Source: Deferribacteres bacterium (GTDB lineage Bacteria > Nitrospirota > Thermodesulfovibrionia > UBA6902). Taken from it: a DNA stretch of 34,561 bases. The stretch's first letter is position 1. Each line of letters starts with the position of its first letter. A model generated the notes under the pieces. That model saw nothing but the letters and a program-made list of their open reading frames with translations. It was not told the origin of the DNA and ran no database searches. Shown in pieces: positions 2,541 through 32,459 of the stretch. Where the stretch lies: NCBI GenBank assembly GCA_013152795.1, contig JAADFS010000192.1, forward strand, positions 1 through 34,561, given 5' to 3'. A program made the translations under genes and the position numbers.

Positions 2541-2630
2541 CTGCTCCTCCTGTCTATCATATCCGGAAACAGGGAGACCCCCGCCGCCGTTTCGAAATTT
2601 ATTTTAAGGGCGTATTGCGATACACCCCTG

Positions 2631-3230
2631 CTATGTTCCAACTGTTTCAGCCTCTTTGACTTTTGCATCAACAACTGCAATAGCCTTTTCCGGACACGCC
2701 GGGACGCATTCGCCGCACTTGACGCATTTGGTCTGCCTGATCTCAAACGGCTGGTACCCGCTGATAAACGCCCGTCTCTTTTCGCCATAGATAGCGCCGT
2801 ATTTGCAGGCCGTCAGGCATTCGCCGCACATGGTGCACTTCGCAGTGATAATCGTGTATTCAATGTAGGCCCCGCATGTCCGCTCCGGACAAATGCCTTC
2901 GACATGCCTGTCGAAGTCTCCTGTATCGAGCCACTGAAGCATAAACCGTGCAGTATCTTTTCCCTTTTTACACATGGAGCCGTCCAGCATATCAGAGGCG
3001 ATCCTTCGGAGTTTGGACAGATCCTCCTCCGCGGCCTTCCCCTCAATCATATTATTCAGAATCACCCTTGCCTCATAGCTCCCCATGGAGCAGGGAAAGC
3101 ACTTGCCGCACATCGGCCCGGCGAGGAATTCCGTCATATAGAAAAGTGCCCTTTCCAAAGGGCATTTCTTTTCATCCGCCGCCTTTTTGATGTCGTCTGT
3201 CTTTATGAGTCTCTTATCTGTCATGGCCAA
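2631..3230 (-). CDS. Stand-alone NuoF C-terminal iron-sulfur-like domain plus two 4Fe-4S ferredoxin motifs
   Basis: 199 aa; GPMCGKCFPCSMGSYEA...SMCKKGKDTA resembles the NuoF 4Fe-4S site; CTMCGECLTACKYGA and CVKCGECVPACPEKA. Confidence 0.85.
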   Translation of the reverse strand: MAMTDKRLIKTDDIKKAADEKKCPLERALFYMTEFLAGPMCGKCFPCSMGSYEARVILNNMIEGKAAEEDLSKLRRIASDMLDGSMCKKGKDTARFMLQWLDTGDFDRHVEGICPERTCGAYIEYTIITAKCTMCGECLTACKYGAIYGEKRRAFISGYQPFEIRQTKCVKCGECVPACPEKAIAVVDAKVKEAETVGT

Positions 3231-3233
3231 ACC

Positions 3234-5573: not shown

Positions 5574-5607
5574 ATCTTCACCTTAATTAATATTTAATGT
5601 AATTAAG

Positions 5608-6090
5608 CTATCCGTCGCCGCTTTTAATATCCTCGACTATCTCATCAAGCCTTTTCATGTCTATTTCACCGACGATGCTCTCATTGACCGTCGCCACCGG
5701 TGCAAGGCCGCAGCAGCCGATGCATCCCACGGTCTCAAGGGTCATCGCAAGATCAGGCGTTGTCTCTCCTTCATCTATCTTGAACTCATCCTTGATCCTG
5801 TCGAGAACTTTATCCGCCCCCCTTACATGGCAGGCGGTGCCCGTGCAGACGCGTACTATCTTCCTGCCCCGCGGCGTGAAATAGAACTGTTTGTAAAACG
5901 TCGCTGTGCTGTAAACATCTGACAGCGGTATATCCAGCTTTTTAGATAACCTTATCAGGTCTTCCTCCGGCAGATAATTGCGTTCCTTCTGTATCTGCTG
6001 GAAGGCATGTATGAGGATGCCCCTTTTCTTCTGTGTATCGGTCAGAATATCGCCGACATGTCCTATGACTTCATCAACCTTGAGATTCAC
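5608..6090 (-). CDS. NuoE/HydC-like 2Fe-2S thioredoxin-fold subunit
   Basis: C..C...C..C pattern (CTGTACHVRGA...CIGCCGLAPV). The supplied ORF starts at 6111, but a GTG at 6088-6090 with GGGAGG 5 nt upstream looks like a better start. Confidence 0.88.
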   Translation of the reverse strand: MNLKVDEVIGHVGDILTDTQKKRGILIHAFQQIQKERNYLPEEDLIRLSKKLDIPLSDVYSTATFYKQFYFTPRGRKIVRVCTGTACHVRGADKVLDRIKDEFKIDEGETTPDLAMTLETVGCIGCCGLAPVATVNESIVGEIDMKRLDEIVEDIKSGDG

Positions 6091-8086
6091 TGATACCTCC
6101 CACTCCGGCATGGGCTGCGCCGGCTGCTGATCTTTCCAGTTCCCTCCTGGCAGCCATGTCCATAAGGACCCTTTCGGCGCCGAACTTTCCGGGTTCGTAT
6201 TTTCTCAATTTGAGCCTCTCCCTCGCCTTGTCTATGTAGTCAAGTGTCATCGCAAGAATCTTTTCAGGATCCGGCTCGAAATGAAGCGCTCCCATGTAGC
6301 GCTCAAACCATACTTCGGTCATGATCCTTTCAACTTCCTTGCTCGCTCCGACCGGTGACTCCCCGCCCATGATTACGGGAACACCGGATGCCGCGAAATA
6401 TGTACCGATTGCAATGGCCTTCTCGGACATCCACTCCGGAGCGATTCCAACGGCAGGCATTCCGCCGATCTCATCGGACAGGCCCCCTTCATGCGCCATG
6501 GCCGTTGCTATCGTGAGTATCCTCGAGTTGTCTACGCACGCGCCGAGGTGAAGGATGGGCGGGATTCCGATTGCCTCACAGACCTCCCTGAGGCCTGGGC
6601 CGGCATTTTCAAGCGCCATCTCGGGCGTTAAATATCCGGCGGTCCCGCATGCTGCAGAGCCGCAGCCGGTTGAGACGATGAGAACGTCATTTTTTATAAG
6701 CTCGGTTGCAAGGTATTTGTGAATGCTTGTGGCCTGCACCCTCGGGTTGTCGCATCCTACCAGCCCGACCACGCCCCGGATCCTTCCGGCCATGATGGCG
6801 TCATTCAAAGGCCTGAAGGATGCACGCCATTTTCCGCCCTGCATGTATTCGATATACTCATGGGAGAAACCTGCTATCAGCGGCGTCTTGCGGGTGATAT
6901 GGCTTCCCTCGCTTGTCCTGTTCGGGAAATTGTCTATGGCCATTCTTATAATCTTCTCCGCCGTCTCCCTTGCATGGTGCTCGTCGTATTCAACGTGGAC
7001 TGCCCCGGGTATCTTGGCCTTGGGGCTGGTGGTGATGATCTTTGTATGGAATTTCTCCGACAGCTTGGCGATGGCAGGCATGATGCACTGCACATCAACC
7101 GTCATGGCGTCGATCAGACCAGTCATAATACCCAGTTCCTGGTTTGTAAACCCGCCGGCAGTGGGTATCCCGTGCCTCATGAGGACCTCGTTTGCAGTGC
7201 AGCACATGCCGCCGAGATTGATGCCCTTCGCCCCCTTGGATTTTGCGTATTCAATCATCTCCGGCGAGGATGCCACATCAACGATTATCTCGGCAAGGGT
7301 GGGCTCGTGGCCGTGGACGATGAGGTTGACCTCGTCCTCCTTGAATATGCCGAAGCTGGATTCGGCCCTGAGGGGTTTGGGTGTTCCGAAGAGGATGTCC
7401 GTGATGTCCGTGGAGATCATGCAGCCGCCCCAGCCGTCCGCCAGTGCGGTCCTTAATCCCTGTGCCAGCAGGTGATCGGCCTCGTGGTCCACACCCACAC
7501 TTGTCCGGTGCATGGCCTCCACCACCTCCCTGTCTATGCCGCGCGGGGCAATCCCCCATTTCCTCCATCTCTCCTGCGTCTTCTCGGGAGCCCTTTTGTT
7601 GTAATTCAGTTCCCCTGTCTGGCGCCCGAAATCCTCAAGGAATTTAAGGGCGACATCTTTTGCAACATCATTGACAGGCCTGCCCTCGAATTCTATTCCG
7701 AGTATACCGGCAACCTTGTACAGTTTTTTGACGTCGGTTATCTTGAAGTCCTTTGCCGTACCCTCGGCGGCCGCCAGGAGGGTCATGGCCATGTCTCTTG
7801 CGTGATCAGAGTGGGCGGCGGTGCCTGCCGCTATCATCCTTACGAGGTTTCTTGCAGCCACCGTGGCAAGCGATGCGCCGCATACCCCTGCCGCCTTTTC
7901 CTCGGCGTTCCGGCCCACGAGCCTGCACGGGCCCATATGGCATACCCTGCAGCAGGCCCCGGTCTCGCCTATGGGGCACTGCTTCAGTTTCTCCGCACGC
8001 TCAAAGCATGTCTCAAGATGGTGGGACTCACCCCATTCTATTATCTCTTCTGCTGATGTGCTTGCGCTTTTTGTCACTTTATCCAT
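6074..8086 (-). CDS. cooS: Anaerobic carbon-monoxide dehydrogenase catalytic subunit
   Basis: 670 aa; CPIGETGACCRVCHMGPCRL (B/D cluster ligands), GGMCCTANEVLMRHG, GCGSAACGTAGYLTPE, HLGACVDNSRI. Confidence 0.97.
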   Translation of the reverse strand: MDKVTKSASTSAEEIIEWGESHHLETCFERAEKLKQCPIGETGACCRVCHMGPCRLVGRNAEEKAAGVCGASLATVAARNLVRMIAAGTAAHSDHARDMAMTLLAAAEGTAKDFKITDVKKLYKVAGILGIEFEGRPVNDVAKDVALKFLEDFGRQTGELNYNKRAPEKTQERWRKWGIAPRGIDREVVEAMHRTSVGVDHEADHLLAQGLRTALADGWGGCMISTDITDILFGTPKPLRAESSFGIFKEDEVNLIVHGHEPTLAEIIVDVASSPEMIEYAKSKGAKGINLGGMCCTANEVLMRHGIPTAGGFTNQELGIMTGLIDAMTVDVQCIMPAIAKLSEKFHTKIITTSPKAKIPGAVHVEYDEHHARETAEKIIRMAIDNFPNRTSEGSHITRKTPLIAGFSHEYIEYMQGGKWRASFRPLNDAIMAGRIRGVVGLVGCDNPRVQATSIHKYLATELIKNDVLIVSTGCGSAACGTAGYLTPEMALENAGPGLREVCEAIGIPPILHLGACVDNSRILTIATAMAHEGGLSDEIGGMPAVGIAPEWMSEKAIAIGTYFAASGVPVIMGGESPVGASKEVERIMTEVWFERYMGALHFEPDPEKILAMTLDYIDKARERLKLRKYEPGKFGAERVLMDMAARRELERSAAGAAHAGVGGISESQG

Positions 8087-8160
8087 ATATCCTCCATAAT
8101 TCGTGAATCGTGTCCGGTCGGCGTGTCCGTAAAAATGCTCAACTCAGACGGACAACCTCT

Positions 8161-10359
8161 TTAGAACATCGGTTCCATCTCAAGCGCCGGATGCCCGACA
8201 CTTGCAAGATATTCCAGAAGCTTTTCAGAATCTTCCGCGATAGTCTCATCCGCAATCTTATCCATTAAATCAGGCACCCCCTCTTCCTCGCACCTCTTTT
8301 TGAAATCCTCGGCGATTCTCTCCTTGAGATTCTTTGTCATCCAGACTATTCTCCTGATTCCGCCGTCTGCATAGAGGAACTTGCGGCTTGTAATGAAATT
8401 CACCCCTATCCCCATAAAACCGGGGTTCTGCGTGCCTCCACCGACTGTACCGGCCAGTGTGGAGAATTTCATTCCAACAGGGGTCATGCCTGTATGGCCT
8501 CTCTGCACGAGCATTACCCCGTTGGCCTCAGGGATAATTGCAACGATACACTCAAAACAGCCGCAGGATGTCATGGGATTATCCATGATTGTGTACAGAT
8601 TGAGCGATTCAACCGCACCCGCGGAATTGGCCTTGAGGTATTCATCAACACCGGCCCACCTGCCTGCCTTGGCGTCCAGCACCTCGCCCTTCTTTATGGG
8701 CTGGTTGCCGCCTGTGGGGTCTATCTCGAAGGCGGCCTTTGTGTCCAGCCAGTTGTAAGCGCCGCACAGACCCAGGCGCTCCGGGCTTATAACGCATACG
8801 TGGGACGGCGCGAACGACTGGCACAGGAGGCAGGAGTAATAGGTATCCACTGATTCGTCCGTGAGGCCGGCAAGCCTGTGGTCCCTTTCCTTGTAGACGG
8901 CCCTTGCCTGTTCCTGGAGTTCGAGGACGTCCTTTTCATCGAAATAAAGTGTGACCTGGACCTTATCGACAATCGCCTTGAACCTGTTGTGTGTCATGGT
9001 GTTGTGTATTATGCCGATATGCTCCAGCGTGATGCCGTCCTTGTACGCCTGTTTGCTGATTCTCATCCATACGATGTCGCGTTGTCCCATGTGCCACAGG
9101 CCCTGTGCTTCGTTTATGTTATGATGGAGCTTTCTCTCGATAATGGCCTCAAAGTCCTTCTGCATCTTCCGGCCTGCAACGTCTATGACAATCCCGAGCG
9201 GCATCTGCCCGCCGGCCTTGTATCTCTCTTCTATATCAGTGCCCACAAGCACTACTTTGCCGTCTTCGATCTCATCCATTTCCCTTGTTCTTACCCATTC
9301 AAATGCAGGTGTGCGGTTGCCGCCGAACTCTATGAACATGTCTTCTTTCCTGATCCTCTCGCCCTCGAATGCAGGGCCGTAGGAGACGGGGATAGGCGGT
9401 TTCTCAACCGTTACCTTAAGCCCTCTGACCTCAAAGGCCCTCTGTACGATCTTGCTGTGGTCGAGTTCTTTTTCGACATGCTCGTAGGTGCATACCCCTG
9501 TCGGGTGGATGACCGGGACATCGGTATCGCATATTGCGGGGTATCCCATATTGATGGCTCCGGCACCCGTGGACCACTTGACGTCGTCAAGCTCGCCCAG
9601 GACAAGGGCGAAAGCAAAGACCCTGTCTTTTGTATATTTCAGATGCGCCTTGTAATCCCCGGGCTTGTTGCCGCCGAAGATCAGGGACGCCCTGATGGAC
9701 CAGTCGAGCGCATAGAGTGTATGTTCTGTTTTCGTGCCGAGAGGGACGATATATGTATCCCAGCCGAGCTCGACATTCTTCCTCAGAAGTTGCCTCGTGA
9801 CGCTGTCGCCTCCCGATTCCCCGGAGAGGAATATGAGGATGTTCTTTTCCTGCAGTTCCCTCACGATTTTCACCGCGGTTTCATCATCAGGGGCCGCGCC
9901 GATGATGGCTGCAAAACCCGGCATCCTGCCGTCAACAAGCTGGATGCCCAGGTTTCTCTGAATGGTGTCCGTGATGAAGCCGTTGTATACATAACCTGTT
10001 TCAGGGTCTGTATCCGGCTCAAGCCCCTCAATATATCTCAGGGCCAGTATGATCTCCTCGCAGAAAAGGGTTGCCATGCCCGAATCCAGGGCCTCTCCGA
10101 GATATGGTTTCCAGAGCTTTTCCTCCGGCTCCTCGTGCAGCATCTCCCTTGCCATTTCCAGGGCAACCTTCATGTCGGCAAGTGTCTTGACAGGGAATGC
10201 CGTCATTGCATACACCAGCGGAAGGTAAAAAGCAGTGTCCGGAAACTCAAACACGAAGTCCTTTCCTTTTTCCGCAATCGCCTTATCAAGCATCTCCTCC
10301 GCCGTCCTGAAGAGACTGTGTGAAGCCCTTATTGCAGCAGAGGCAATTATCTTTGACAT
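8161..10359 (-). CDS. acsB: CO-methylating acetyl-CoA synthase (bacterial full-length form)
   Basis: 732 aa; A-cluster-like CLLCQSFAPSHVCVISPERLGLCGAYNW and SCGCFECI; next to cooS and acsCDE. Confidence 0.97.
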   Translation of the reverse strand: MSKIIASAAIRASHSLFRTAEEMLDKAIAEKGKDFVFEFPDTAFYLPLVYAMTAFPVKTLADMKVALEMAREMLHEEPEEKLWKPYLGEALDSGMATLFCEEIILALRYIEGLEPDTDPETGYVYNGFITDTIQRNLGIQLVDGRMPGFAAIIGAAPDDETAVKIVRELQEKNILIFLSGESGGDSVTRQLLRKNVELGWDTYIVPLGTKTEHTLYALDWSIRASLIFGGNKPGDYKAHLKYTKDRVFAFALVLGELDDVKWSTGAGAINMGYPAICDTDVPVIHPTGVCTYEHVEKELDHSKIVQRAFEVRGLKVTVEKPPIPVSYGPAFEGERIRKEDMFIEFGGNRTPAFEWVRTREMDEIEDGKVVLVGTDIEERYKAGGQMPLGIVIDVAGRKMQKDFEAIIERKLHHNINEAQGLWHMGQRDIVWMRISKQAYKDGITLEHIGIIHNTMTHNRFKAIVDKVQVTLYFDEKDVLELQEQARAVYKERDHRLAGLTDESVDTYYSCLLCQSFAPSHVCVISPERLGLCGAYNWLDTKAAFEIDPTGGNQPIKKGEVLDAKAGRWAGVDEYLKANSAGAVESLNLYTIMDNPMTSCGCFECIVAIIPEANGVMLVQRGHTGMTPVGMKFSTLAGTVGGGTQNPGFMGIGVNFITSRKFLYADGGIRRIVWMTKNLKERIAEDFKKRCEEEGVPDLMDKIADETIAEDSEKLLEYLASVGHPALEMEPMF

Positions 10360-10406
10360 TTCAACCTCCTAAACGGTAATTATATGTACGGTAATAAATC
10401 TCCTGC

Positions 10407-10835
10407 CTAATGGCGCTTCCTGCACTTCCGGCATAAGCCGTAAAACTCGATACTGTTGCCGAGCAATTCAAATCCGTGTGTGAGCTCTTCCGGCACGTCC
10501 AGCTTGAAATCCGTGTGCAGATCGAGAATCTTCTTGCACTTAATGCACAAAATATGGTGGTGTTTGGTGGTGTCCGGGTCATATCTTTTCTTGCCGGAAT
10601 CTATCTTGAGCTCCTTCACGCGTTGTTTGTTTTTCAGCGCCTCAAGCGTGTTGTAAACCGTTGCAAAAGACATTGTGGGATAGTGTTTCAGCACCGCCTT
10701 GTAAATGTCTTCGGCAGACGGATGCGACTTGTTGCCCCTCAGAAAATTCAGTATGGCAAGCCGCTGGGGCGTTAATTTAATCTGAAGTCGTCTGAATTCT
10801 TTCATGGTTTTGATTTTTCTTCTGTCATTCCTCAA
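10407..10835 (-). CDS. Fur/PerR-family transcriptional regulator
   Basis: 142 aa winged-helix (LTPQRLAILNFL...MSFATVYNTLEAL) with HHHILCIKCKKI and LCRKCRKRH. Confidence 0.93.
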   Translation of the reverse strand: MRNDRRKIKTMKEFRRLQIKLTPQRLAILNFLRGNKSHPSAEDIYKAVLKHYPTMSFATVYNTLEALKNKQRVKELKIDSGKKRYDPDTTKHHHILCIKCKKILDLHTDFKLDVPEELTHGFELLGNSIEFYGLCRKCRKRH

Positions 10836-10920
10836 CTTCTCCGGGGGTCGTTTTTCCGGCAGGGATTACCGGTGTGCTCCCGCCTCCGGGAATGACACGT
10901 TCTTAAGTACTCAAATTAGT

Positions 10921-10935
10921 TAATAATAATTATTA
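10921..10935. promoter_or_regulatory. Candidate Fur/PerR-type operator (7-1-7 inverted repeat)
   Basis: TAATAAT-A-ATTATTA is a perfect 7-1-7 inverted repeat about 85 bp upstream of the fur-like start, flanked by two ATTAGTTAATAA direct repeats at 10915-10926 and 10932-10943. Confidence 0.6.
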
Positions 10936-11016
10936 GTTAATAAAACGTCATAATATCTTACAGATGTCCGCCCCCCCTGTCAAACAGGCTGCACATAAAT
11001 AAACCCTCCAGGGGCG

Positions 11017-11038
11017 TAAAAATACCGCCCGCGGGCGG
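11017..11038 (-). terminator. Candidate intrinsic terminator of the acsE-acsD-acsC unit
   Basis: On the minus strand the perfect palindrome CCGCCCGCGGGCGG (11025-11038) is followed by TATTTTTACG, downstream of the acsC stop. Confidence 0.6.
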
Positions 11039-11081
11039 GAGGGAGGGCCTGCAGCGTTCAGGCAACATCAGGCCAGAAAAC

Positions 11082-12422
11082 CTATGCACGGTTTTTCAGA
11101 AAAGTCGGAATGGCGTTCGCCTCCCTCGGGCCGACCGTTATCTTCCATCCCTCGAGCTTGTCCTCGAGCGCGCCGCTGAGGATTGCAACCTGACCCGGCA
11201 GGATAAGCTCCTTGTGGCTGATCTGGTTCTCCACCCCGCTTTCCTTTATGAACTGCGCGATCTTTGCGGCCGTGAACTTACCGGCAGCCCAGGCAGTCAG
11301 AACGGAAAGACCCTCGCAGTCCATTACGGCAAGCCGTGCCGGCACCCGGCTGTTTTCAATCTCACCCGATACAATGAAATAGGTGAGCGAGAAATTCGTT
11401 GTAATCATAAGCGGTGAATCCGGACCCGGCTCTCCGATTTCGTAAATCTTCTGCTCCACCTGCATCGGCACCTGCGGGTCGGTGTAGAGATTCTGCCTCA
11501 GCGTGAAGAGCGCGAGATTCTTCCACTTTTCAATACTGCCGAGTATGACTATTGAGGCGTATTTGGCGATTGCCACAGAGGCAATGGATGCCTCGAAAAG
11601 GGGATCATCCCTCAACACGCTGTTTATCACCGGATATCCGAGCGGTTTGAAGTTCTTCTTAAGCGCAGAACGCCTGATCTGCGTATTGTGCTCTATGATC
11701 TCCCTTGCCGTCTTTGCGCCGGAGTCAAGTACGATATCCTCCACGCCGAGCCCCTTGATCTTTTCAGTGAGCACCGAGAGGGCCTCCGGACCCTGCGCGC
11801 ATGCAACAAGGGGAACACCGTGAGCCTTTGCAACAGCGGCCATGGCTTCGGCGTTTCCGTCATCAGCTCCGTAGATCAGCGGCTTTCTCTCTGCAACGGC
11901 CTTTACGGCGGCCTCGGCCGCAGCGACATCCTTGCAGTTCAGTATGATGGCCGCCTCCGGCGCCTTCTCCGCCACAAGCCTTACGGCAGCCTCATATCTG
12001 GCGGCGTCGCCCGAAGCATATTCCACGGATATGGCATCAACCCTCAGTTTCTGCCCCACCCGGTCGATTTCGGAAGAGGCCACTTCGGATGCCTTTTCCG
12101 CAAGTTCGCCGTCGCTTAAGCTGTCTTTAACATTAAGCGCCAGGGCACAGGGATTGATGAACTTCTTCTCATGCCTGAACAGAACGGTCTCTCCGCCCAG
12201 CTTTACAGCCTTTTCCCCGGTGCCGAGCTCGAATGACCTTATGGGCGGCGCCGACGCCTCGCCGAGGGTTTTCTTTGCCTCCTCCGACACATCAGGACAC
12301 GCTGAAAGCTCCACGCCTCCCTGCGCGAGTTTCATTGCAAAGGCCAGACATGTGGGAAATCCGCATTTCTTGCAGTTTGTCTTCGGAAGAAGCTTAAATA
12401 TCTGAATTCCGGTTAATGCCAT
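11082..12422 (-). CDS. acsC: Corrinoid/iron-sulfur protein large subunit
   Basis: 446 aa; N-terminal CKKCGFPTCLAFAMKLAQGG...C Fe-S motif and TIM-barrel/corrinoid region; next to acsD. Confidence 0.95.
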   Translation of the reverse strand: MALTGIQIFKLLPKTNCKKCGFPTCLAFAMKLAQGGVELSACPDVSEEAKKTLGEASAPPIRSFELGTGEKAVKLGGETVLFRHEKKFINPCALALNVKDSLSDGELAEKASEVASSEIDRVGQKLRVDAISVEYASGDAARYEAAVRLVAEKAPEAAIILNCKDVAAAEAAVKAVAERKPLIYGADDGNAEAMAAVAKAHGVPLVACAQGPEALSVLTEKIKGLGVEDIVLDSGAKTAREIIEHNTQIRRSALKKNFKPLGYPVINSVLRDDPLFEASIASVAIAKYASIVILGSIEKWKNLALFTLRQNLYTDPQVPMQVEQKIYEIGEPGPDSPLMITTNFSLTYFIVSGEIENSRVPARLAVMDCEGLSVLTAWAAGKFTAAKIAQFIKESGVENQISHKELILPGQVAILSGALEDKLEGWKITVGPREANAIPTFLKNRA

Positions 12423-12442
12423 TGTTTACCTCCATATTTTGC

Positions 12443-13384
12443 TCAAACCAGTTCACCGATGGTCTTTTCAACGGTCTCTATCGCCGCAGGATGCCTCATG
12501 ATAAGGAGGTTTGTCCCGGCCAGAAGCATCGCCGTTGCGGTAATCGCCTCCCAGGCAATGCCCCTCTCACGGAGCGCCCCCCATTCAGGAACATCCGCTT
12601 CCGGGGCAACGGTCTCCTTTATCTTCCAGACATACATGCCGACATCCCCGAGTATCGGAGGCTGCATGGTCGGATCATTCTGGGCAAGCGCGGCAAGCCG
12701 TATCCTCTCCATCACTGAATAGGTATACTCCAGGCCGTACCCGAGCGCAGAGCACATCGGGTCTGTAATGAGCTTTTCTTTGCTGAAACCCATCTGGGTT
12801 ATCAGGATGTTCAACTGTTTTGCAAGATTGATGTCAAGCTCCGACATTGCTATCAGTTTATGATTATGCGCGAGGGCCGCGGCCACTATGGTTTTGTAAT
12901 TGCCCTCCTGGGCCTTTCCGATTATGCAGTTGTACCCGCTTGCAGCCTCGGCTGCGGCAACCAGCACCGTGGAGTCCTTTTCAATGTGGTTGGAGCCGAG
13001 TATGACAAGGGGCACATCAACAGCCGCCAGCACATCCTTGACGGTCTTGGCGGCATCCTCGGCAGACCTGTCGTCCCTGTCTGGATGGGTGCTCAGAAGC
13101 CTGAGCGCAATGGCCTTTGCATTCAGGACATCCTGGCAGTGTTTGGCCCATGCAACAGGATCGCCGCTTACATCCTTGTATGCCTCTTTTACTGTATCCG
13201 GCCAGTCATCGGGCGGACAGTCCTGAATCTCATAGGCAATCACGGGCTTGTTGGGCTGTTGTCCTTCAAAGGACAGGAACGGAAGGGTGTTTTCACCGCC
13301 TACTGTAACCGCCCTGTCGTCTTTGCCGAAATCAAAGCTTAGGACTTTACCGGTATATGACTCCTTAGGAATAACGTAAGACAT
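12443..13384 (-). CDS. acsD: Corrinoid/iron-sulfur protein small subunit
   Basis: 313 aa; DPVAWAKHCQDVLNAKAIALRL, LEYTYSVMERIRLAAL; CdhD/AcsD-like. Confidence 0.94.
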   Translation of the reverse strand: MSYVIPKESYTGKVLSFDFGKDDRAVTVGGENTLPFLSFEGQQPNKPVIAYEIQDCPPDDWPDTVKEAYKDVSGDPVAWAKHCQDVLNAKAIALRLLSTHPDRDDRSAEDAAKTVKDVLAAVDVPLVILGSNHIEKDSTVLVAAAEAASGYNCIIGKAQEGNYKTIVAAALAHNHKLIAMSELDINLAKQLNILITQMGFSKEKLITDPMCSALGYGLEYTYSVMERIRLAALAQNDPTMQPPILGDVGMYVWKIKETVAPEADVPEWGALRERGIAWEAITATAMLLAGTNLLIMRHPAAIETVEKTIGELV

Positions 13385-17380: not shown

Positions 17381-19825
17381 ATGAAATCAAGGAATTCATA
17401 TCTGATTCTGGGTGTGCTTATGATCGCCCTGCTGATGCCGTCTTCAGCAGGCGCAGCCTGGCGGACAGGCTGTGTGGATTGTCCGCGTCTTTTTTATCGT
17501 ATAGATATGCGGACGCTGGCGGTGGATTCTTCCGGGAATCCACATATTGTTTACGGTGGAGGGGGCTGGATCGGAGATGGTGTATATTATGCATATTATG
17601 ACGGAGACTCATGGCATATCGAAACAGTGGACGACAGGGGTGGTGGCACTCTCTCCATAGCCATAGACTCCTCGGATAAAGCGCATATCAGCTATGACGG
17701 CAGCGGCGGGTTGAAACATGCAACCAATGCATCCGGCTCGTGGGTGATTGAGACAGTGGACATTGAAGGAGGCGGTCGTCCCTCCATAGCCATAGACTCC
17801 TCGGATAAGATTCATATCAGTTATGGCAGCAGCCCTCTGAAATATGCGACGAATGCATCCGGTTCATGGGTGATTGAGACAGTGGAGGACGTGGGAGCCT
17901 GGTCTAACTCCATAGCGGCAGACTCGTCAGGCAACGTGCATATCACTTATCGTTATTCTACTGCTGATTCAAAAGATTACATCCTCAAATACGCGACGAA
18001 TGCATCCGGCTCATGGGTAACCGAGATTATAGACAGCGACGGAAGGGTAGGTGAGCATCACTCCATAGCTGTCGACTCATCGGATAAAGTGCATATTGCG
18101 TATGATTATTATCTTTATCTGAAATATGCGACGAATGCATCCGGCTCATGGGTAACCGAAATTGTAGACAGCGACGGAAGGGTGGGTGAGAGTAACTCCA
18201 TAGCCGTAGACTCGTCAGACAACGTGCACATCAGTTACGGTGATTATACCAGTTATCCGTATTATCAACTGAAATACGCAACAAATGCCTCAGGTTCATG
18301 GGTCACCGAGATAGTGGACGATAGCGCTGTATTATCGATTTTCTCCAGGACCTCCATAGCCGTAGATTCCTCAGATAATGTGCATATCAGTTACGTCCAT
18401 GACAGTCCTATTCCTACTTATATTTTTCCGAAGTTCTACCTCAGATATGCAACCAATGCATCCGGTTCGTGGGTCACCGAGACAGTGGACAGTGGCAGGA
18501 AAGTCAGCAAGTATAGTTCGGTAGCCATGGATTCAACAGGTAATGCACATATTAGTTATGTCAGCGATGAAGGTCTGATACATATGACCAACAACGTGGG
18601 TTCTTGGATAACCGAGGTTGTGGTCAGTGGGTTGGGAAGCTGGCCCAACTCCATAGCTGTAGACTCGGCAGACAATGTACATATCGGTTATCTCGGTGAT
18701 CAAGGTTTGATACACGTTACAAATGAGCAGGGTTCATGGGCAAGCGAAATTGTGGATACTAATGGAGGCATATCCAACTCCATCGTCATAGACTCCTCGG
18801 ATAAAGTGCATATTAGTTATCTTAGTCATTATGAGGACAAGGCCTATCCAAATGAGTATCTGAAATATGCGACAAATGCATCCGGTTCATGGGTCACTGA
18901 GACCGTATTGGTCGGCGCTGCAGGTGAATACTTTCACAACTCTATAGCCCTGGATTCTTCGGATAAGGTACATATTACTTATCGGGATGCGTACTGGCTG
19001 GTATTGCCAAGTAATATCAACCATGTGACGAATGCATCCGGTTCATGGATCACTGAGGTTGTCGATCGTGATGGAATGGCTCCTTCCATAGCCATAGACT
19101 CCGCAGACAATGTGCATATCAGTTATTTTTATCCTGTTTATTATTCAAGTTACAGATACCTGAAACATGCGACGAATGCATCCGGTTCGTGGGTGAATGA
19201 AGTTGTAGATAACACAGGAAGCCCGTCTTTCATAGCCATAGACTCCGCAGACAATGTGCATATCAGTTATAGCAACGCTCAATCTCTGATGTATATGACA
19301 AATGCATCGGGTTCATGGGTGAGCGAAACGGTGGACAGCGATGCAGGTGAGGTGATCTCCATGGCGATGGATTCAACGGATAAGGTTTACATTGTCTACT
19401 ATGACAGATTTCATTTTGACCTCAAGTATGCAACAAACAAGCCCTTGCCTGACATCTCGGTAACCGACTCGGTCGACCCCGCGGATGACCTCCAGATACC
19501 GTTTGGTGAAGTAAGGGGAGGCAGGTCACCAAGCCGGACAGCAACTGTAACAAATATTGCAGACAGCGGCAGCGAAAACCTTGTGATCAGTGCTGTATAT
19601 CTGACAGGTGCGAATCCGGAACAATTCGAGATATGGAAGGATAATTGTTCTGATACGGCATTAGCATCGTCCGGAAGCTGTACGATACGAGTGGTATTCA
19701 CGCCTGAAGAGGAAGGAGTGTACAGTGCAAGGCTGGGCATAGACAGCAACGACCCCGACACACCTACAGTTTATGTGAAATTAACCGGGACAAGCGTTGC
19801 AAAGCGCAAGCAGGGCCGCAGATAG
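17381..19825 (+). CDS. Secreted repeat protein, predicted double seven-bladed beta-propeller with C-terminal ASH/choice-of-anchor-D-like domain
   Basis: 814 aa; signal peptide MKSRNSYLILGVLMIALLMPSSAGAA; 14 repeats of LKYATNASGSWVTEIVD...SIAIDSSDKVHISY; tail QIPFGEVRGGRSPSRTATVTN...SCTIRVVFTPEEEGVYSARLGIDSNDPDTPTVYVKLTG. Confidence 0.85.
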   Translation: MKSRNSYLILGVLMIALLMPSSAGAAWRTGCVDCPRLFYRIDMRTLAVDSSGNPHIVYGGGGWIGDGVYYAYYDGDSWHIETVDDRGGGTLSIAIDSSDKAHISYDGSGGLKHATNASGSWVIETVDIEGGGRPSIAIDSSDKIHISYGSSPLKYATNASGSWVIETVEDVGAWSNSIAADSSGNVHITYRYSTADSKDYILKYATNASGSWVTEIIDSDGRVGEHHSIAVDSSDKVHIAYDYYLYLKYATNASGSWVTEIVDSDGRVGESNSIAVDSSDNVHISYGDYTSYPYYQLKYATNASGSWVTEIVDDSAVLSIFSRTSIAVDSSDNVHISYVHDSPIPTYIFPKFYLRYATNASGSWVTETVDSGRKVSKYSSVAMDSTGNAHISYVSDEGLIHMTNNVGSWITEVVVSGLGSWPNSIAVDSADNVHIGYLGDQGLIHVTNEQGSWASEIVDTNGGISNSIVIDSSDKVHISYLSHYEDKAYPNEYLKYATNASGSWVTETVLVGAAGEYFHNSIALDSSDKVHITYRDAYWLVLPSNINHVTNASGSWITEVVDRDGMAPSIAIDSADNVHISYFYPVYYSSYRYLKHATNASGSWVNEVVDNTGSPSFIAIDSADNVHISYSNAQSLMYMTNASGSWVSETVDSDAGEVISMAMDSTDKVYIVYYDRFHFDLKYATNKPLPDISVTDSVDPADDLQIPFGEVRGGRSPSRTATVTNIADSGSENLVISAVYLTGANPEQFEIWKDNCSDTALASSGSCTIRVVFTPEEEGVYSARLGIDSNDPDTPTVYVKLTGTSVAKRKQGRR

Positions 19826-19842
19826 CCCTGAGAGAGATCTGC

Positions 19843-19881
19843 GGGGATTGCAAAGCCGGAAGATCCGGCTTTACAATCCCC
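19843..19881 (+). terminator. Long hairpin, candidate terminator between the tandem propeller genes
   Basis: GGGGATTG-c-AAAGCCGGA-aga-TCCGGCTTT-a-CAATCCCC: 17 paired bases, one internal mismatch, 3-nt loop, then ATTTATAA (weak U tract). Confidence 0.6.
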
Positions 19882-19960
19882 ATTTATAACCGTAAAAAGT
19901 ATTTCTCAGCTTTTTCTTTCCGAGGGGGTAAATATTAATGCAATAAAGGGGGAGGCTGTC

Positions 19961-22377
19961 ATGAAATCAAGAAATTCATATTTGATTCCGGGCGTTCTCA
20001 TAATCGCCCTGCTGTTGCCCTATTCAGCACTTGCCGGCTGGCGGACGGGGTGTGTGGATTGTCCACGTTATTTCGATGGTATGAATTCCAGGTCACTGGC
20101 GCTGGATTCTTCGGGGAATCCCCATATTGTTTATGGAAGTAGAGACGGTGTATATTATGCCTGGTATGACGGAGTTTCCTGGCATACTGAGACAGTGAAC
20201 ATCGATGGAGGCATATTTGCCTCCATAGCCATAGCCATAGACTCGTCAGATAAGGTACATATTATTTATTATGACGGTTATCCAAATAGGGCCCTGAAAT
20301 ACGCCACGAATGCCTCCGGCTCATGGGTGTCTGAAGTTGTGGACAGCGACGGAGGCTGGGCTACCTCCATAGCCATAGACTCATCAGATAAGGTGCATAT
20401 CAGTTATTCCTATTATCGTGGTTATCCGGACTACATCAATGCCCTGAAGTATGCGACGAATGCCTCCGGCTCATGGGTGTCTGAAGTTGTGGACAGCGAC
20501 GGAGGCTGGGCTACCTCCATAGCCATAGACTCATCAGATAAGGTGATATCAGTTATAATGTTAGTTATCCAAATTATGACCTGAAATATGCAACAAATGC
20601 CTCCGGCTCATGGGCGACTGAGATTGTGGACAGCGGTGAGGGCTGGGCTACCTCCATAGCCATAGACTCATCAGATAAGGTGCATATCAGTTATAATGTT
20701 GATTATCCAAATTATGACCTGAAATATGCAACAAACGCCTCAGGCTCATGGGTGTCTGAGATTGTGGACAGCAGAAGCATGTATCCCTCCATAGCCATAG
20801 ACTCATCGGATAAGGCGCATATCAGTTATTATAACCATTCGGATTACGACCTGAAATATGCCACGAATGCCTCCGGCTTATGGGTGACCGAGATTGTGGA
20901 CGATAAAGCAAGTTTAAAAGGAGACAATGGTAACTCCTCCATAGCGGTGGATTCATCAGATAATGTGCATATCAGTTATCTGTTCGCTCATATCGGTTAT
21001 ACGTCTGATTATGAATATGGCTTTACTGACCTCAAGTATGCAGTGAATTCATCCGGTTCATGGGTAATCGAGACAGTAGACAGCGGCAGAAAAGCCAGCG
21101 ATGGTTCAGTAGCAATAGATTCGTCAGATATGCTGCATATCAGTTATGTAACCGATCAGGGTTTGATGTACATGACGAATGCCTCAGGCTCATGGGTGAC
21201 TGAGATTGTGGACAGCGGCGGAAGCTGGGCTCCTTATATAGCCATAGACTCCTCAGATAAGGCGCATATCAGTTATGATAGTTATCCCTTCGAGAGGGGT
21301 GTAAAATATGCCACGAATGCCTCCGGTTCATGGGTAACTGAGATTATGGACAGCAAGAGCAAAGCCGATGTTACTTCCATAGCCATAGACTCATCGGATA
21401 AGGTGCATATTAGTTATTATAGCTATGATCCGGATTACGCCCTGAAATATACAACGAATGCCTCAGGCTTATGGGTGACTGAGATTGTGGACAGCAAAAG
21501 CAAATCTGCGGTTCCTTCTATAGCCATAGACTCCTCAGATAAGGCGCATATTAGTTATAACAGCAATTATCCGGATTTCGACCTGAAATACGCCACGAAT
21601 GCTTCGGGCTCATGGGTGTCTGAGATTGTGGACAGCTATGTGGACATTTTTTCCTCCATAGCCATAGACTCCTCAGATAAGGCACATATTAGTTATAACA
21701 GCAATTATCCGGATTCCAGCCTGAAATACGCCACTAATGCTTCGGGCTCATGGGTGTCTGAGATTGTGGACAGCGACGGAGGCTGGTCTAACTTCATAGC
21801 CATAGACTCCTCAGATAAGGCGCATATTAGTTATATCTCCCGTAGCAGTTTGAAATACGCTACGAATGCCTCCGGCTCATGGGAGGTTGAAACAGTGGTG
21901 AATCAAGGCAGGCCTAACTCCATAGCCATGGATTCATCAGACAATGTTTATATTATTTATTATGATATAGAGCATTATGACCTCAGGTATGCAACCAACA
22001 AGCCCTTACCGGAAATCTCGGCGACCGACTCGGTCGATCCCGCCGGTGACCTCCTGATACCGTTTGGTGAAGTAAGGGGAGGCAGGCCGTCAAGACAGAC
22101 AGCCACTGTAACAAATACCGGAGACGCAGACCTTGTAATCAGCGAGGTATATTTGACAGGCGCGGATCCGGAACAATTCGATATACGAAAGGACACCTGT
22201 TCAAATATGCCTGTAGCGCCCTCCGGAAGCTGCACGATAGATGTGGTATTCACTCCTCAAGAGGCAGGTGTGTACAGTGCAAGGCTGGGCATAGACAGCA
22301 ACGACCTCGACACACCGGAGCTTTATGTAAAGTTAACCGGGACAGGTATTGCAATGCGCATGAAAAGCCGCAAATAG
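19961..22377 (+). pseudogene. Second secreted 14-repeat propeller paralog, interrupted by a one-base deletion (ORFs 19961..20584 and 20626..22377)
   Basis: Same signal peptide, WRTGCVDCPR start, repeats and C-terminal domain as the upstream paralog. GATAAGGTG-ATATCAGTTA at 20538-20554 lacks the C present in sister repeats (GATAAGGTGCATATCAGTTA). Restoring it joins the frames. Confidence 0.8.
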
Positions 22378-22464: not shown

Positions 22465-23365
22465 TCAGTACGGGTATCCCACCGATCTGAAAATCTCCCT
22501 GCACTCTTTCTCCTTTTCAACATCCGGTCTTATGCCGTTCAGTGCGGCGGGCGCATCCTTTCCGAGGGATTGTCTTTTTGCAATCCCCCCTGAATTATAG
22601 GGCAGCAGTTCATAATATGCGCAGCCTGTGTTTTTAATGAAAGAGGCGATACCGGTGAGATTCTCCGCCGTTGCCGTAATACCGGGGACAAGGGGTACTC
22701 TCGGGATGACCTGAATGTCCCGTGCCTGAACCAGGCTCGTGAAATTCTCCAGTATCGCATCATTCACTCTGCCCGTATATTTCTCATGCTCATGCCGGTC
22801 AATAAACTTGATGTCGTAATATATGAGGTCAACATAGGGCAGAATGCCTGTCCTGAATCCGGTGGATCCCGGATGTCTGGATTGCAATGTGAATATTGTT
22901 TTTCTTCAGTTCTTCCATTACCGGCTGAAGGTAACGGGTATAAAGCGCCGGCTCCCCACCTGAGAAAGTCACACCGCCGTTTGAGGTCTCATAAAAGACG
23001 CGGTCTCTCAAGAGTATCTCCACGAGTTCGCCGGCAAGATAATATCCGCCTATCAGCTCCACGGCCCCCGCAGGACAGATGTCCGCGCATCTGCCGCATG
23101 CAGTGCATTGCTCCCTGTTTATCCTCTGCATGTCATGCATACTGACCGCACCTTCGCTGCATACCCTCCGGCAGTCTCCGCACAGTATGCACCTGTCAGG
23201 ATAAAAGGCGACCTCGGCGGCAGGGTCCATGGATTCAGGATTGTGGCACCAGATGCACGAAAGAGGGCATCCCTTGAGAAAAACGGTGGTCCTTATGCCC
23301 GGGCCGTCATCAAGGGCAAAGCGGCGTATATTGAATATCAACGGCTGTTTTTGTTTCCTGCTCAT
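22465..23365 (-). pseudogene. Glycyl radical enzyme activating protein (radical SAM, two ferredoxin-like motifs), apparently frameshifted
   Basis: 22829..23365 has GPGIRTTVFLKGCPLSCIWCHNPES, CILCGDCRRVC, CTACGRCADICPAGA, TFSGGEPALY, IAIQTSG. 22465..22887 continues in another frame: GILPYVDLIYYDIKFID...PRVPLVPGITATAENL...YELLPYN. Confidence 0.8.
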
Positions 23366-23838: not shown

Positions 23839-26319
23839 CTACTCATACGGCAGCATTGATTTATGCGCCTCGGGAAACGGGTTTGCCTTGCCGGTCCTTA
23901 TGTCGTATTCGGTCCTGGTGATGATCTCTTCCTTCATCGCCTCGTTCAGGGCATTGAAGTATGCCGAATATCCCGATACCCTTACGAGAAGCTCCGGATA
24001 TTTATCCGGATTATTCCTGGCATCAAGAAGGGTTTCGTAAGACATGATATTAAACTGCACATGAAGGCCCCCGCTCCTGAAATACGCCTCCACAGCCGAG
24101 GCGAATCTCTCGAGGTCCTCCTCACCTGAAACAGACGGATATTTCAGGTTGAGGGCCTCTCCCATGGGGATGCAGAGACCGTCAAGGCCGCCCACTGTCC
24201 TGAGGCACGCGGCCAGGTCCCGGGCGGCCTGCGATACAGGGGTGATGCCGCTGGCGAATACCTCATAAGCCCTTCTGCCGTTGGGAAGCGCGCCGGAGAG
24301 CTTTCCCTGGCCTGCATGATTGGTCGTTGTCCAGTAAGCCGGCCTGTATTTGCCTCCGCGGTAGTTTGTATGGCCCTGGTAGAAATCATACAGGAAGCGT
24401 ATGAGGTTCTGCGAGTTCTTCACTGCAACAGGGTCTTCAGTGCCGTATTTGGGGGTCCTGTTGACAAGGTATGCATGCAGCTTTTCATGCCCGTTGAAGT
24501 TCGCCTTCAGGGCCTGGATGAGTTCGGCGAATGTGCATTTCCCCTCAATGAAGACCGCCTTCTCTATTGCATTGAGTGAATCAACGGTGTCGGCAAACCC
24601 GATATGGGTCGCGCCCGAGGCATTATACAGCGCGCCTCCGAATATAAGGTCCTTCCCCTTTTCCATAGGCCCCTCGAAAAAGGCCGAAAGCAGGGGCGTG
24701 GGATATATCTCCTGGTGCACGAGGCCGAAGTATTCGTTTAATTCAATGGCCTTGCCCATGAGCCAGGAAGCCTGTTTCTTGAATGCCTCCCAGAACTCTT
24801 CAAAGCTCCTGAACTCCTCGGGGTCGCCGGTCACAGGCCCTATCTGTTCATCACCGACAACGGGTCTTTTGCCGTTGTAGAGGGCCAGCTCAAGCGCCGA
24901 GACAAGATTGAACATGATGGAGCTTGAGGCATCATAGCTCTTGCCGGGGATGCCCATCTCCACGCAGCCGATTATACCGTAGTCCCGCGCATGTTCTGTC
25001 TTCACACCCTGGTTTTCAAGTGTCACAATGTCAACCACGTCATTATGAAATGCCGGCACGGCCCTTGTGTTCACTATAACCTCCGCGACCCTGTCGCGGT
25101 ACTCCCTGGTATTTTTCTCATAATGATACCTCGCGTTCATACTGGGGTCCCTGAGTTTGAGAAGCTCCGTCACCCTGAGTATGATATAGGTCAATTCATT
25201 GACCGCATCTTCACCGTTTTCGTCCACCCCGCCTACCGTAACCGCCGGGACGGTACCCGCTCCGCCCCAGAGTTCTTCAGCGGTCTCGGGCACGAGATTG
25301 GTGTTGTCGTTGAGCTTCAGCCAGAGACAGCTCATTATTTCAACGGCCTCTCTGTCGGTCAGGGTCCCGTTGTCAATATCATTCCTGTAGTATTTATAGA
25401 GCACCTGGTCGAGCCTCCCCGGGCTCATGGCCATATTGATGCTTTCGGCGTGGATGCCCACCTGTATAATCCACAGGGAATTGACGGCCTCGCGGAATGT
25501 GCCCGCAGGTTTTGCAGGCACCCTTGCGCATATTTCGGACATTGTCCGGAAATTCTGTTTCCTGAACGGGTCGTCCGTCTCTGCTGCAAGCTCAGCGGCC
25601 CTTCTGCTCAGGTTCCGTGCGTATGCAATAATTCCCTGAAGCGCTATTTGGACAGCCTGGTAAAACTCAAGCTTCTGTTTGTTTTCACCGGTGATATTCC
25701 CGCTCTCCCGGATATGCCTTTCCCTTGAGGCTGCCTCTTCAATGATGAATTCCAGCCCCCTGTCCAGTGCAACCTCGTATCCGGGAATGGTATGGGATAT
25801 GGTGCCGGCCTTGCCTGCTATGAAAAAGACGAACTTTTCAAAGAGGCCCATGCACTCGGGATTGTTATATTTTTTCCTGGTGTATTCAATAATGTTCCGC
25901 TCCATCCAGTAGGGGTAAATCTCGAAGTTCAGCTCATCGGCATCTTCAGGCGACAGCTTCAGCGGATTCTTCTTCCTGTCACTGATGGTATCCAGCTCGG
26001 GCCATATGGTCATCCCTGTATACTCCGGGTACACGGGTGCACCGAAGGCCTTTGAAGTGGTCGTGCCTGCAAGCAGGTTATCATCGAAAAAGAGCGGTTC
26101 CTTGTTGGAAAGGAAATAATTGACCGCCTTTGCATAACGGATTTCCGCGGGCTCCTCATCAGTGGACATATTCTTCAGATAATGTGTTAAATGCCTCGCG
26201 CGTTCAATACAGACCTCGGGCCTTATTTTGATCTGTGATTCCCTCAGCCTCCTTATCAGGTCCAGGTTGTCAAGCGAATACTCCCTGAGCCGGATATCTT
26301 TTAAACGAATGGACGACAT
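23839..26319 (-). CDS. Glycyl radical enzyme (PFL-like superfamily, substrate unknown)
   Basis: 826 aa; thiyl/base motif IGCVEMGIPGKSYDASSS and C-terminal glycyl radical motif RVSGYSAYFNALN. Confidence 0.93.
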   Translation of the reverse strand: MSSIRLKDIRLREYSLDNLDLIRRLRESQIKIRPEVCIERARHLTHYLKNMSTDEEPAEIRYAKAVNYFLSNKEPLFFDDNLLAGTTTSKAFGAPVYPEYTGMTIWPELDTISDRKKNPLKLSPEDADELNFEIYPYWMERNIIEYTRKKYNNPECMGLFEKFVFFIAGKAGTISHTIPGYEVALDRGLEFIIEEAASRERHIRESGNITGENKQKLEFYQAVQIALQGIIAYARNLSRRAAELAAETDDPFRKQNFRTMSEICARVPAKPAGTFREAVNSLWIIQVGIHAESINMAMSPGRLDQVLYKYYRNDIDNGTLTDREAVEIMSCLWLKLNDNTNLVPETAEELWGGAGTVPAVTVGGVDENGEDAVNELTYIILRVTELLKLRDPSMNARYHYEKNTREYRDRVAEVIVNTRAVPAFHNDVVDIVTLENQGVKTEHARDYGIIGCVEMGIPGKSYDASSSIMFNLVSALELALYNGKRPVVGDEQIGPVTGDPEEFRSFEEFWEAFKKQASWLMGKAIELNEYFGLVHQEIYPTPLLSAFFEGPMEKGKDLIFGGALYNASGATHIGFADTVDSLNAIEKAVFIEGKCTFAELIQALKANFNGHEKLHAYLVNRTPKYGTEDPVAVKNSQNLIRFLYDFYQGHTNYRGGKYRPAYWTTTNHAGQGKLSGALPNGRRAYEVFASGITPVSQAARDLAACLRTVGGLDGLCIPMGEALNLKYPSVSGEEDLERFASAVEAYFRSGGLHVQFNIMSYETLLDARNNPDKYPELLVRVSGYSAYFNALNEAMKEEIITRTEYDIRTGKANPFPEAHKSMLPYE

Positions 26320-28366: not shown

Positions 28367-30235
28367 TCACCGGTCGGTGTCAAAGCCGATAAACTCCCTG
28401 ACCGCATACCAGTCGTCATCCATCAGCATAAAGTATCCGAAATTTTCATACTTATAGACAGCCGGGTCTTTTGCGGGATCATACGGTATCCCGGGTTTCG
28501 TCGAATAAAGGAGCTGCCCCAGGTACAGGCCGTCGGCTATCCTGACCAGCTCGTCTATGCAGAGGTTGTCCGGGGGCATGGTGTGTAATTCCGGCCACCG
28601 GTAGTTGAACTGCAGCACCTCCCTGCCGCCGTTTTCGGGGTTGATGGATCTGCTGTTGGCTGCAATGAAGTAAAAACTCTTGACATAAATGTCATCGCTT
28701 TTTTCCTTTTCATCCGGATATTCCACAATCATCCCCGTTCTGTCCAGTAGTTCTATAAACGCAGTAACCGGCAGGGAAAGCCCGAGGTCCTTCCTGTATG
28801 TATTGGCCCCGATGATAACGGGATTCATCCCCTCATAATACCGCGCGCTGTCTCCGATATACTTCCTTATCCCGTCTACGGATGAAGGTGTAAAGGTCTT
28901 GCCCGTCCACGGTGAAAACGGCCTGACGGCAGGGTATATGTCATTCAGCACGGTCCTGTCGAACTTTTTCAGGAAACCGCCGTTGTTGAAAGAGACGACA
29001 CCTCCGTGCAGGAAACCGCTGATGCCGCGGGGCGACTCTCCGCATTTAAACACCTCGAGAAGCCTGGCAAAGTACCGTTCCTTGTACCCCGGCCCTTTCT
29101 GTATCCCGTCGTAGATATCCCGCAGGTAATGGAGTATGGTCTCCCTGTCCCCCATATCCTCGGCAATTGCCCTGCACTCGGGAGAATCCCTGAACGTGAA
29201 TGTCCTGAATTTGCCGGAGAGGTCTTGGGACAAACTGTACGCAATTTCGGGAAAGAGCCTGTTCTTTTCACCAAGCCACGTGTCGTCCATGAGAAGGAAA
29301 TACCCGAAATTCCGGTACTTGTAATCCTTTACCGGCACGTCGGGGTCATAATCTTTAAACAGATATTTCAGGGAAGTTGCATAATAGAGCTTCCCGAGGT
29401 AGAGGCCCTTGGATATCTCAACTATTTCATCAATGAGGAGCCTGTTGGGAAAGACATTACCAAGGTTTTTCCAGCGGTAATTCAGGGCCAGCACCTCTTT
29501 TCCAGGATGGGCCGTGTCTACAGACATGGCTTTCCGCGCGAGAAAGAGGCCTCCCCTGGCATGTATCCATGAACGTTGCCTCTTGTCCGCGCCGGGCACT
29601 GCCTCCATATCTATAACGGCAGACAGCACATAGTTTGAAAGATTGTTGACAACTCCATTCTTTTCTTTGCGGAAAGAGTTTATCCCCAGATACACGGTAT
29701 CTCCTCCGGGGACGGCACCGCCGGTGAATTTCTTTACCTTCTCAGGCCCTATCTTCCTAAAATCCTTTCCTGCCCACGGTGATGTATCGGACAGCAGCCT
29801 GCCGTAAAGCACCTGAAGCATGTCAACCTCTCTGCCTATGCCGAGCCTCTGCCGGGTCTTCTCAAGGAAGGTGTAAACATCGGTTCCCGTCTTAAGGCTT
29901 ATGGTGATGCCGTGGTAGAATCCGTCAACTTCCCCGGGTGTCCTGCCGCAGAGGAAGAGCCGGTCGAGCTTGCCGGCGATTTCCCCGTGCGAGGTGCCTT
30001 TATTGAGGATGTCCGTATAGTAGCGCATCAGTTCCAGCGGGTTGTTCCTGCCCTTCATGTCCTTCTGCATTATCTCCATAAACAGGGGGTCTTCCCTGTC
30101 GCACGTATCCGCAAGGGTGAAATCCCGGGACACGCCGGGCCCGGCCGGAATGTCCCCGCCTCCCCGGCCCTCTTTTTTTATGCACGAGTAGAGAAAAAAC
30201 ACTGATAATACCACGCAGATGACTTTTATCCTCAT
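28367..30235 (-). CDS. Predicted lipoprotein with two homologous ~300-aa halves
   Basis: ORF runs from 30328, but MRIKVICVVLSVFFLYSCIKKEG (start 30235, preceded by GGAAAGGGGC) gives a signal peptide and lipobox. Confidence 0.7.
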   Translation of the reverse strand: MRIKVICVVLSVFFLYSCIKKEGRGGGDIPAGPGVSRDFTLADTCDREDPLFMEIMQKDMKGRNNPLELMRYYTDILNKGTSHGEIAGKLDRLFLCGRTPGEVDGFYHGITISLKTGTDVYTFLEKTRQRLGIGREVDMLQVLYGRLLSDTSPWAGKDFRKIGPEKVKKFTGGAVPGGDTVYLGINSFRKEKNGVVNNLSNYVLSAVIDMEAVPGADKRQRSWIHARGGLFLARKAMSVDTAHPGKEVLALNYRWKNLGNVFPNRLLIDEIVEISKGLYLGKLYYATSLKYLFKDYDPDVPVKDYKYRNFGYFLLMDDTWLGEKNRLFPEIAYSLSQDLSGKFRTFTFRDSPECRAIAEDMGDRETILHYLRDIYDGIQKGPGYKERYFARLLEVFKCGESPRGISGFLHGGVVSFNNGGFLKKFDRTVLNDIYPAVRPFSPWTGKTFTPSSVDGIRKYIGDSARYYEGMNPVIIGANTYRKDLGLSLPVTAFIELLDRTGMIVEYPDEKEKSDDIYVKSFYFIAANSRSINPENGGREVLQFNYRWPELHTMPPDNLCIDELVRIADGLYLGQLLYSTKPGIPYDPAKDPAVYKYENFGYFMLMDDDWYAVREFIGFDTDR

Positions 30236-30500
30236 TGACAGCCCCTTTCCGTTAAATGTCTTCTGTGTTAACCTTAAATCATTCTCGTCCCCTTGCGGGA
30301 AAGAAATATCCTCTTGGAAATACCTCAAACAGGGACAGTATTACCCCTTTATCTTGCTGAATTATAGTTTATTCACAGCCAAATGATTTGTAAACCTTAC
30401 AGTGGCAAAAAACATCGCCGGCGTGACAGGAGAGCCGAAGGTTTTACCGGAAATTTTCAACCGTTTTTTGTCAAATTTTGTAATTTCACGATTCCGGGTA

Positions 30501-31666: not shown

Positions 31667-32459
31667 ATGATGCGTTTCTTTGAAAAGCTGGGTGCCGATG
31701 TCCTGTATCAGGTCAACCAGATCGGCAGGATGGGCATATTTCTCTTTTATTCCGCCATCAGCATAGTAATGCCGCCGTACAAGGTATTCCCTGTCGTCAA
31801 GCAGATATACCATATAGGCGCGCGTTCAGTGTTTGTCATTCTATTCACCGGTGTCTTTACCGGCATGGTCCTGGGGCTTCAGGGGTACAACACCCTCAGC
31901 AAGTTCGGTGCAGAGGGGCTCCTGGGGACTGCCGTGGCCCTAAGCCTTATCAGGGAGTTGGGCCCTGTCATGGCGGCGCTTATGGTAACGGGCAGGGCAG
32001 GCTCCGCCATATGCGCCGAGATAGGCATCATGCGCATCTCCGAACAGATCGACGGACGCCCTGGAGTGCATGGCTATTGATCCGCACAAGTATGTCGTAG
32101 CCCCCAAGTTCATAGCGGGAATCGTCTCCCTTCCACTGCTGACCGCTCTTTTTAACGTGATCGGAATCCTGGGGGGATATGTGGTTGGGGTAGGCCTCCT
32201 CGGAATCAATGAAGGGGCATATTTTTCAAGTATGTACAACGACGTGGAGTTCGGAGATATTTATATGGGATTTGTCAAATCCCTCTGCTTCGGGGTTCTG
32301 ATTATATGGATATGCTCTTCAAAGGGGTATTTTGTCCACTTGACAAAAGGCGGGGGGTTTGGAGCCGAAGGCGTAAGCAGTGTCACCACCAATGCGGTGG
32401 TCATGTCATCAGTCTGCATACTGTTATTCGATTATTTCCTGACATCGGTGCTTTTATGA
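31667..32459 (+). pseudogene. mlaE: MlaE-family ABC permease split by a frameshift (ORFs 31667..32080 and 32070..32459)
   Basis: First ORF reads ...AGSAICAEIGIMRISEQID then shifts. Second ORF begins MAIDPHKYVVAPKFIAG. The junction is ATCGACGGACGCCCTGGAG, where removing 4 nt restores ISEQIDALECMAIDP. Confidence 0.85.

Follow-up and report, generated by a model that had tools for sequence, protein, structure and literature searches.

Tandem secreted proteins with fourteen repeats each, predicted to form paired seven-bladed beta-propellers, in a Nitrospirota draft genome

The DNA analysed here, which we call the window, is one complete contig of 34,561 bases (JAADFS010000192.1) from the 2.77-Mb draft genome (GCA_013152795.1; 324 contigs, 85% complete) of a Deferribacteres bacterium placed by GTDB in the Nitrospirota. 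It holds two genes in tandem, encoding protein A (17381-19825, 814 amino acids [aa]) and protein B (19961-22377), flanked by parA/parB-like genes, as read from their open reading frames (ORFs), and by a glycyl-radical enzyme with its activase. We consider it probable that A and B are paralogs from a secreted beta-propeller family, each chain forming two rings of seven blades followed by an immunoglobulin (Ig)-like domain, that they serve in multivalent extracellular binding, and that ring closure fixes the blade number at 7 or 14.

The repeat unit in protein A reads DSSDxVHISY...LKYATNASGSWVTExVD, and 14 copies of the motif, 42-55 aa apart, are found by direct count; the repeats of the locus are also visible in the DNA, with periods of 126-141 bp. 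Protein B carries 14 in total, across one frame change near position 20545. An earlier note made from the letters of the window had given both totals, that of B after repair of the frame, and these were reproduced by direct counting and with a blade hidden Markov model (HMM), as was the architecture it described as common to the two proteins: a signal peptide, the segment WRTGCVDCPR and a C-terminal Ig/ASH-like domain (Table 1). This last domain scores above the 45-bit cut-off of NF012200 (choice-of-anchor D) in both; in Pfam, that of B matches ASH (28.2, cut-off 27) and HYDIN_VesB Ig (34.7, cut-off 25.5), and that of A matches ASH and Cep192_D4 below cut-off.

The blade is about 47 aa long and has four strands; across 713 interior blades, twelve of its positions (S2, D6, H12, I13, Y15, L23, Y25, T27, N28, G31, W33, D39) show the same residue in 86-97% of cases. 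Most fourteen-blade relatives have a distinct type of first blade (PHIAYGGDHLYHAYxDGxxW), and in most family members the last blade ends with its third strand (LKYATN). The array thus consists of a lone N-terminal fourth strand (d0), full blades and a final blade that lacks its fourth strand, with no linker among the 14 blades; given the lone d0 and the incomplete last blade, this is the layout typical of propellers in which the two ends of the array both contribute closing strands. The earlier note had regarded WRTGCVDCPR as a CxxC segment directly after the signal peptide. It is present there in both proteins, but its standing as a segment of its own did not hold up: homologs carry WxTEAVDAPKxF after the signal peptide, of which it is the counterpart in the alignment, and most relatives lack its Cys pair, which is therefore not a defining feature. 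The alignment and the structural model described below indicate that it is the N-terminal outer strand, predicted to close a ring, with no separate CxxC domain.

Table 1. Features of proteins A and B, by position in the window.
Feature	Positions	Strand	Basis
Protein A signal peptide, aa 1-25, cleavage near AGA/AW	17381..17455	+	Sequence reading: hydrophobic core, A-x-A site; near-identical in B
Protein A WRTGCVDCPR; predicted ring-closing strand d0 (RTGCVD)	17459..17488	+	Model strand E4-9; counterpart of WTTEAVDAPK in the alignment with homologs
Protein A blades 1-14, with a distinct first blade (PHIVYGG..VYYAYYDG..W) and no fourth strand in blade 14	17513..19441	+	Motif count, blade HMM, model
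Protein A choice-of-anchor D / ASH (Ig-like) domain, aa 704-794	19490..19762	+	NF012200 60 bits
Protein B signal peptide	19961..20035	+	Sequence reading
Protein B WRTGCVDCPR, predicted closing strand	20039..20068	+	
Protein B first frame: three full blades, then the beginning of blade 4	20090..20545	+	
Protein B frame change inside blade 4	20540..20552	+	
Protein B second frame: remainder of blade 4, then blades 5-14	20548..22002	+	
Protein B choice-of-anchor D / ASH domain	22033..22311	+	NF012200 66.5 bits

An AlphaFold2 model of protein A, built from an alignment of 41 homologs, reached a mean predicted local distance difference test score (pLDDT) of 90.3 and a predicted template modelling score (pTM) of 0.85, and contained exactly 56 strands (14 x 4), with RTGCVD as a beta strand. 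In a Foldseek comparison with the PDB, the seven-bladed Photorhabdus lectins PLL5, PLL2 and PHL covered about half of the chain, with a template modelling (TM) score normalized to the target of 0.72-0.75 and a root-mean-square deviation (rmsd) of 3.7-4.0 Å over 363-368 columns (a few entries scored lower), and the whole-chain matches included double seven-bladed proteins, namely GH74 xyloglucanases (TM 0.45-0.49) and Aip1 (0.40). A single chain of A is thus predicted to arrange its 14 blades as two closed rings of seven, in line with the double propeller proposed in the earlier note, and the strand layout of the model suggests that d0 may close one of them. Blade 7 stands apart within the arrays. 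It is the least typical interior blade, being the one that resembles the other blades least in 17 of 59 fourteen-blade arrays (about 5 expected), and it lacks the usual turn between strands c and d more often than other blades (21/59 versus 104/649, p = 4e-4); these oddities fit a ring boundary at this blade.

How general the count is could be asked across the family, which occurs in Nitrospirota, Planctomycetota (anammox bacteria included), Deltaproteobacteria and archaea, and which no Pfam or NCBIfam model describes. A contig scan with protein A as the sole query found nothing, and one with alignment A1 returned 75 loci; the close relatives in the survey appear to be Nitrospirota draft genomes. 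We applied the blade HMM to the window, to these 75 named loci and to 20 stretches from related genomes. Fourteen blades are present in 70 of the 134 arrays scored complete and seven in 42, so that the multiples of seven for which the earlier note proposed a survey of homologs account for 112; after clustering at 60% identity the same holds for 56 of 67 clusters. Binomial p-values for this census treat the arrays as independent and set the chance at 1/7, and so are descriptive only. Because long arrays were favoured in the first sample, a second was taken from lower-scoring hits: here 14 of 18 ORFs have 7 blades, and the rest have 5, 4 and, over two frames in a single case, 8.

Several of the 22 other arrays in the first sample are pieces, left by broken frames (B itself, L093 with 4+10, L115 with 5+9), contig ends (L066, L085) or an early stop (L099). 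Clear exceptions have 11 blades (L086), 12 (L037 = L059, and L081), 13 (L067, L073, L103) or 15 (L113), and some short divergent archaeal arrays also fall outside 7 or 14. The 12-blade array of L059 was folded together with five other short arrays, avoiding the 14-blade alignment A3, in which a gap near the end would bias the result towards 7+5. The model (pLDDT 87.9, pTM 0.67; N-terminal segment without a strand) contains one seven-bladed ring, with TM mostly 0.74-0.80 to PLL/PHL, and fits a unit that prefers rings of seven, with five blades left over; alternatively, this array may be a collapsed assembly. Arrays are also combined within chains: three archaeal proteins of more than 3,000 aa (L101, L105, L112) each carry several separate seven-blade arrays, and in two Planctomycete proteins (L077, L078) a linker joins a seven-blade array to a following fourteen-blade one.

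The constancy of the count is accompanied by turnover of the blades themselves. With blade boundaries set by the HMM, the interior blades (2-13) of A and B share 73.7% DNA identity at matching positions and likewise 73.7% at non-matching positions, whereas outside the interior the two genes share 81% (signal peptide and d0), 80% (blade 1) and 83% (ASH domain). The earlier note's suggestion that equal counts in divergent repeats reflect constraint is therefore supported, since the interior blades have lost their position-specific similarity and the count has stayed at 14 in both proteins. Within B, the neighbouring pairs 2/3, 4/5 and 11/12 are 87-90% identical, which suggests recent local duplication or conversion. 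Among 58 continuous fourteen-blade arrays, the blade register is kept in 0.9% of pairs (difference >0.05), giving 47 separate groups, a number that depends on the cut (15 groups at a threshold of 0.03). An origin of the 14 by doubling of a seven-blade half was not supported, because blade i is not especially like blade i+7 (mean 0.562 at offset 7; 0.545-0.571 at the others). Recently amplified propellers elsewhere are reported to form a continuum of blade numbers with peaks (PMC9218822). Selection on the blade count is likely, not proven; for the broader proposition that the number is what is selected and the blades are interchangeable, with 7 or 14 kept across lineages that share no register, unlike that continuum, we see the chances as evenly balanced.

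Taken together, we suggest that the 14 blades would fold into two closed rings with the choice-of-anchor D domain at the C-terminus, that closure at seven would hold the number at 7 or 14, and that the protein would serve as an extracellular multivalent scaffold, binding through sites that recur around the rings, with glycans as the likeliest ligand. Since interior blades are freely exchanged at a constant count, the function must be carried by residues common to all blades (D, H, Y, T-N, G, W), together with the conserved first blade; for the same reason of exchange, a single catalytic site is unlikely. Some relatives also carry partner modules of extracellular type (PKD, cadherin-like, Ig-like, TSP3, MopE metal-binding).

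Several observations weigh against this reading. Whole-chain TM scores to known double propellers are just 0.40-0.50, so that the orientation of the rings differs or is uncertain. The strand list of the model would fit closure by d0 of either the ring ending in blade 7 or that ending in blade 14. The sole significant PDB match of the whole-family sequence profile, to PknD (E 8e-4), is weak; the only other hit by sequence was Pizza2 (E 0.19), a designed propeller. Arrays of 4, 5, 8, 11, 12, 13 and 15 blades exist, though they are few. The pair of Trp residues that forms the sugar site in PLL/PHL is absent from the blade consensus, and the assignment of a ligand is inferred. Finally, gene conversion can homogenise blades at a fixed number, and an unchanged count alone is no proof of selection.

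Sugar binding is plausible by analogy with the PLL/PHL fold, and the proteins could be secreted double-propeller lectins close to those of Photorhabdus, holding sugars between blades in the same way. These lectins share with A and B the four-stranded blade and the closed seven-bladed ring, they are the closest single-domain folds for both models, and secretion and the adhesion-type modules of relatives would suit such a role. They differ in having a single ring, and sequence offers no significant match: no PLL/PHL chain appeared in the PDB profile search, NF052348 matched part of B at E 0.083, far below cut-off, and no lectin model matched any of 42 members. Moreover, PHL site 3F uses two residues, Trp199 and Trp214 (PMC5584973), and the blade consensus of the A/B family has a single conserved Trp (97%) with no such pair. 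A close kinship in binding mode is thus a tentative possibility.

Alternatively, the count itself might be explained by descent alone: gene conversion would have homogenised the blades of an ancestral fourteen-blade gene, and their number would not be under selection. Conversion does preserve number, and the distinct first blade is common to most fourteen-blade arrays; counts nevertheless change, if rarely, as the 11-, 12-, 13- and 15-blade proteins with a normal first blade attest, and in B the closely similar neighbours suggest recent local duplication or conversion with the total still at 14. We regard descent alone as rather unlikely.

The single repeat count of B spans two frames: an ORF at 19961-20584 carries blades 1-3 and the beginning of blade 4, and a second frame, to 22377, carries the remainder of blade 4 and then blades 5-14. 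On the same contig, an MlaE permease (31667-32459, +) is split over two ORFs covering profile positions 1-87 and 92-211, which points to insertion or deletion errors in the contig, and a radical-SAM activase (22465-23365, -) beside the glycyl-radical enzyme (23839-26319) seems to be divided between two ORFs in different frames, of which the shorter has no Pfam match of its own. Since MlaE is similarly split, and seemingly the activase too, the change of frame in B may stem from an error in the sequence rather than mark a pseudogene. Further paralogs in the source genome lie on three other contigs (C60, C32, C156): L028 has 14 blades, L029 has 13 with a broken N-terminal frame, and L030 is cut by a contig end. 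Elsewhere in the window are a Wood-Ljungdahl gene cluster (525-13384, -), with Prismane/CO dehydrogenase, acetyl-CoA synthase (CdhC, CdhD) and NADH-dehydrogenase-like subunits, and an ORF of 653 aa (28367-30328, -) without a Pfam match at E 0.001. Rfam gave nothing above gathering score near the A and B genes and nothing in 13 related loci; a search of phages with the family gave no match, and one of plasmids two weak matches.

Among known systems, the nearest precedent is WRAP of Nostoc punctiforme (Npun_R6612, PDB 2YMU), whose 14 near-identical blades were solved as two seven-bladed propellers (PMC6805158). It resembles A and B in having 14 amplified blades arranged as 7+7 (in A and B by prediction only), a closing strand outside the amplified region and frame-broken relatives (PMC6805158, PMC9218822). 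WRAP, however, belongs to the WD40 superfamily and its blades are near-identical, whereas the unit of A and B is about 47 aa, secreted, more diverged and joined to an ASH domain; WD40 had no Pfam match in the window proteins, nor was it among 25 families listed for 42 homologs. The propeller-type repeats SBBP, BNR_4 and RCC1_2 of Pfam match fragments of the family, but each only in some members, and none describes it. By score the C-terminal domains of A and B are members of the choice-of-anchor D family (NF012200), but no C-terminal anchor follows the domain in either.

GH74 xyloglucanases and Aip1/UNC-78 (1NR0) likewise have two seven-bladed rings per chain, with other blade families and whole-chain TM of 0.40-0.49. 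That A and B are GH74-type glycoside hydrolases with two such rings and an active cleft, as the presence of these enzymes among the whole-chain matches might suggest, is very unlikely: neither Pfam nor NCBIfam gave a GH74 or other catalytic family match, and blade exchange between paralogs would not preserve a single catalytic pair. A single closed ring of 14 blades, for which the linker-free array and its closure by d0 and the incomplete blade 14 would allow but which would exceed the 12 blades named as the largest known (PMC9218822), is extremely improbable, because half of such a ring would be an arc that should not fit closed seven-bladed rings as about half of the model does, and because single seven-blade arrays of this unit are common, WRAP was solved as 7+7 and blade 7 has the features of a boundary.

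The seven-bladed fold and the arrangement of 14 blades as 7+7 are thus known already, with WRAP as the solved precedent. What is worth following is the rule of 7 or 14 under blade turnover in this family, which is sharper than the published continuum. It allows the connection of ring closure with repeat number to be tested, with the natural exceptions of 12, 13 and 15 blades as ready test cases, and a secreted family without a curated model gains a likely structure.

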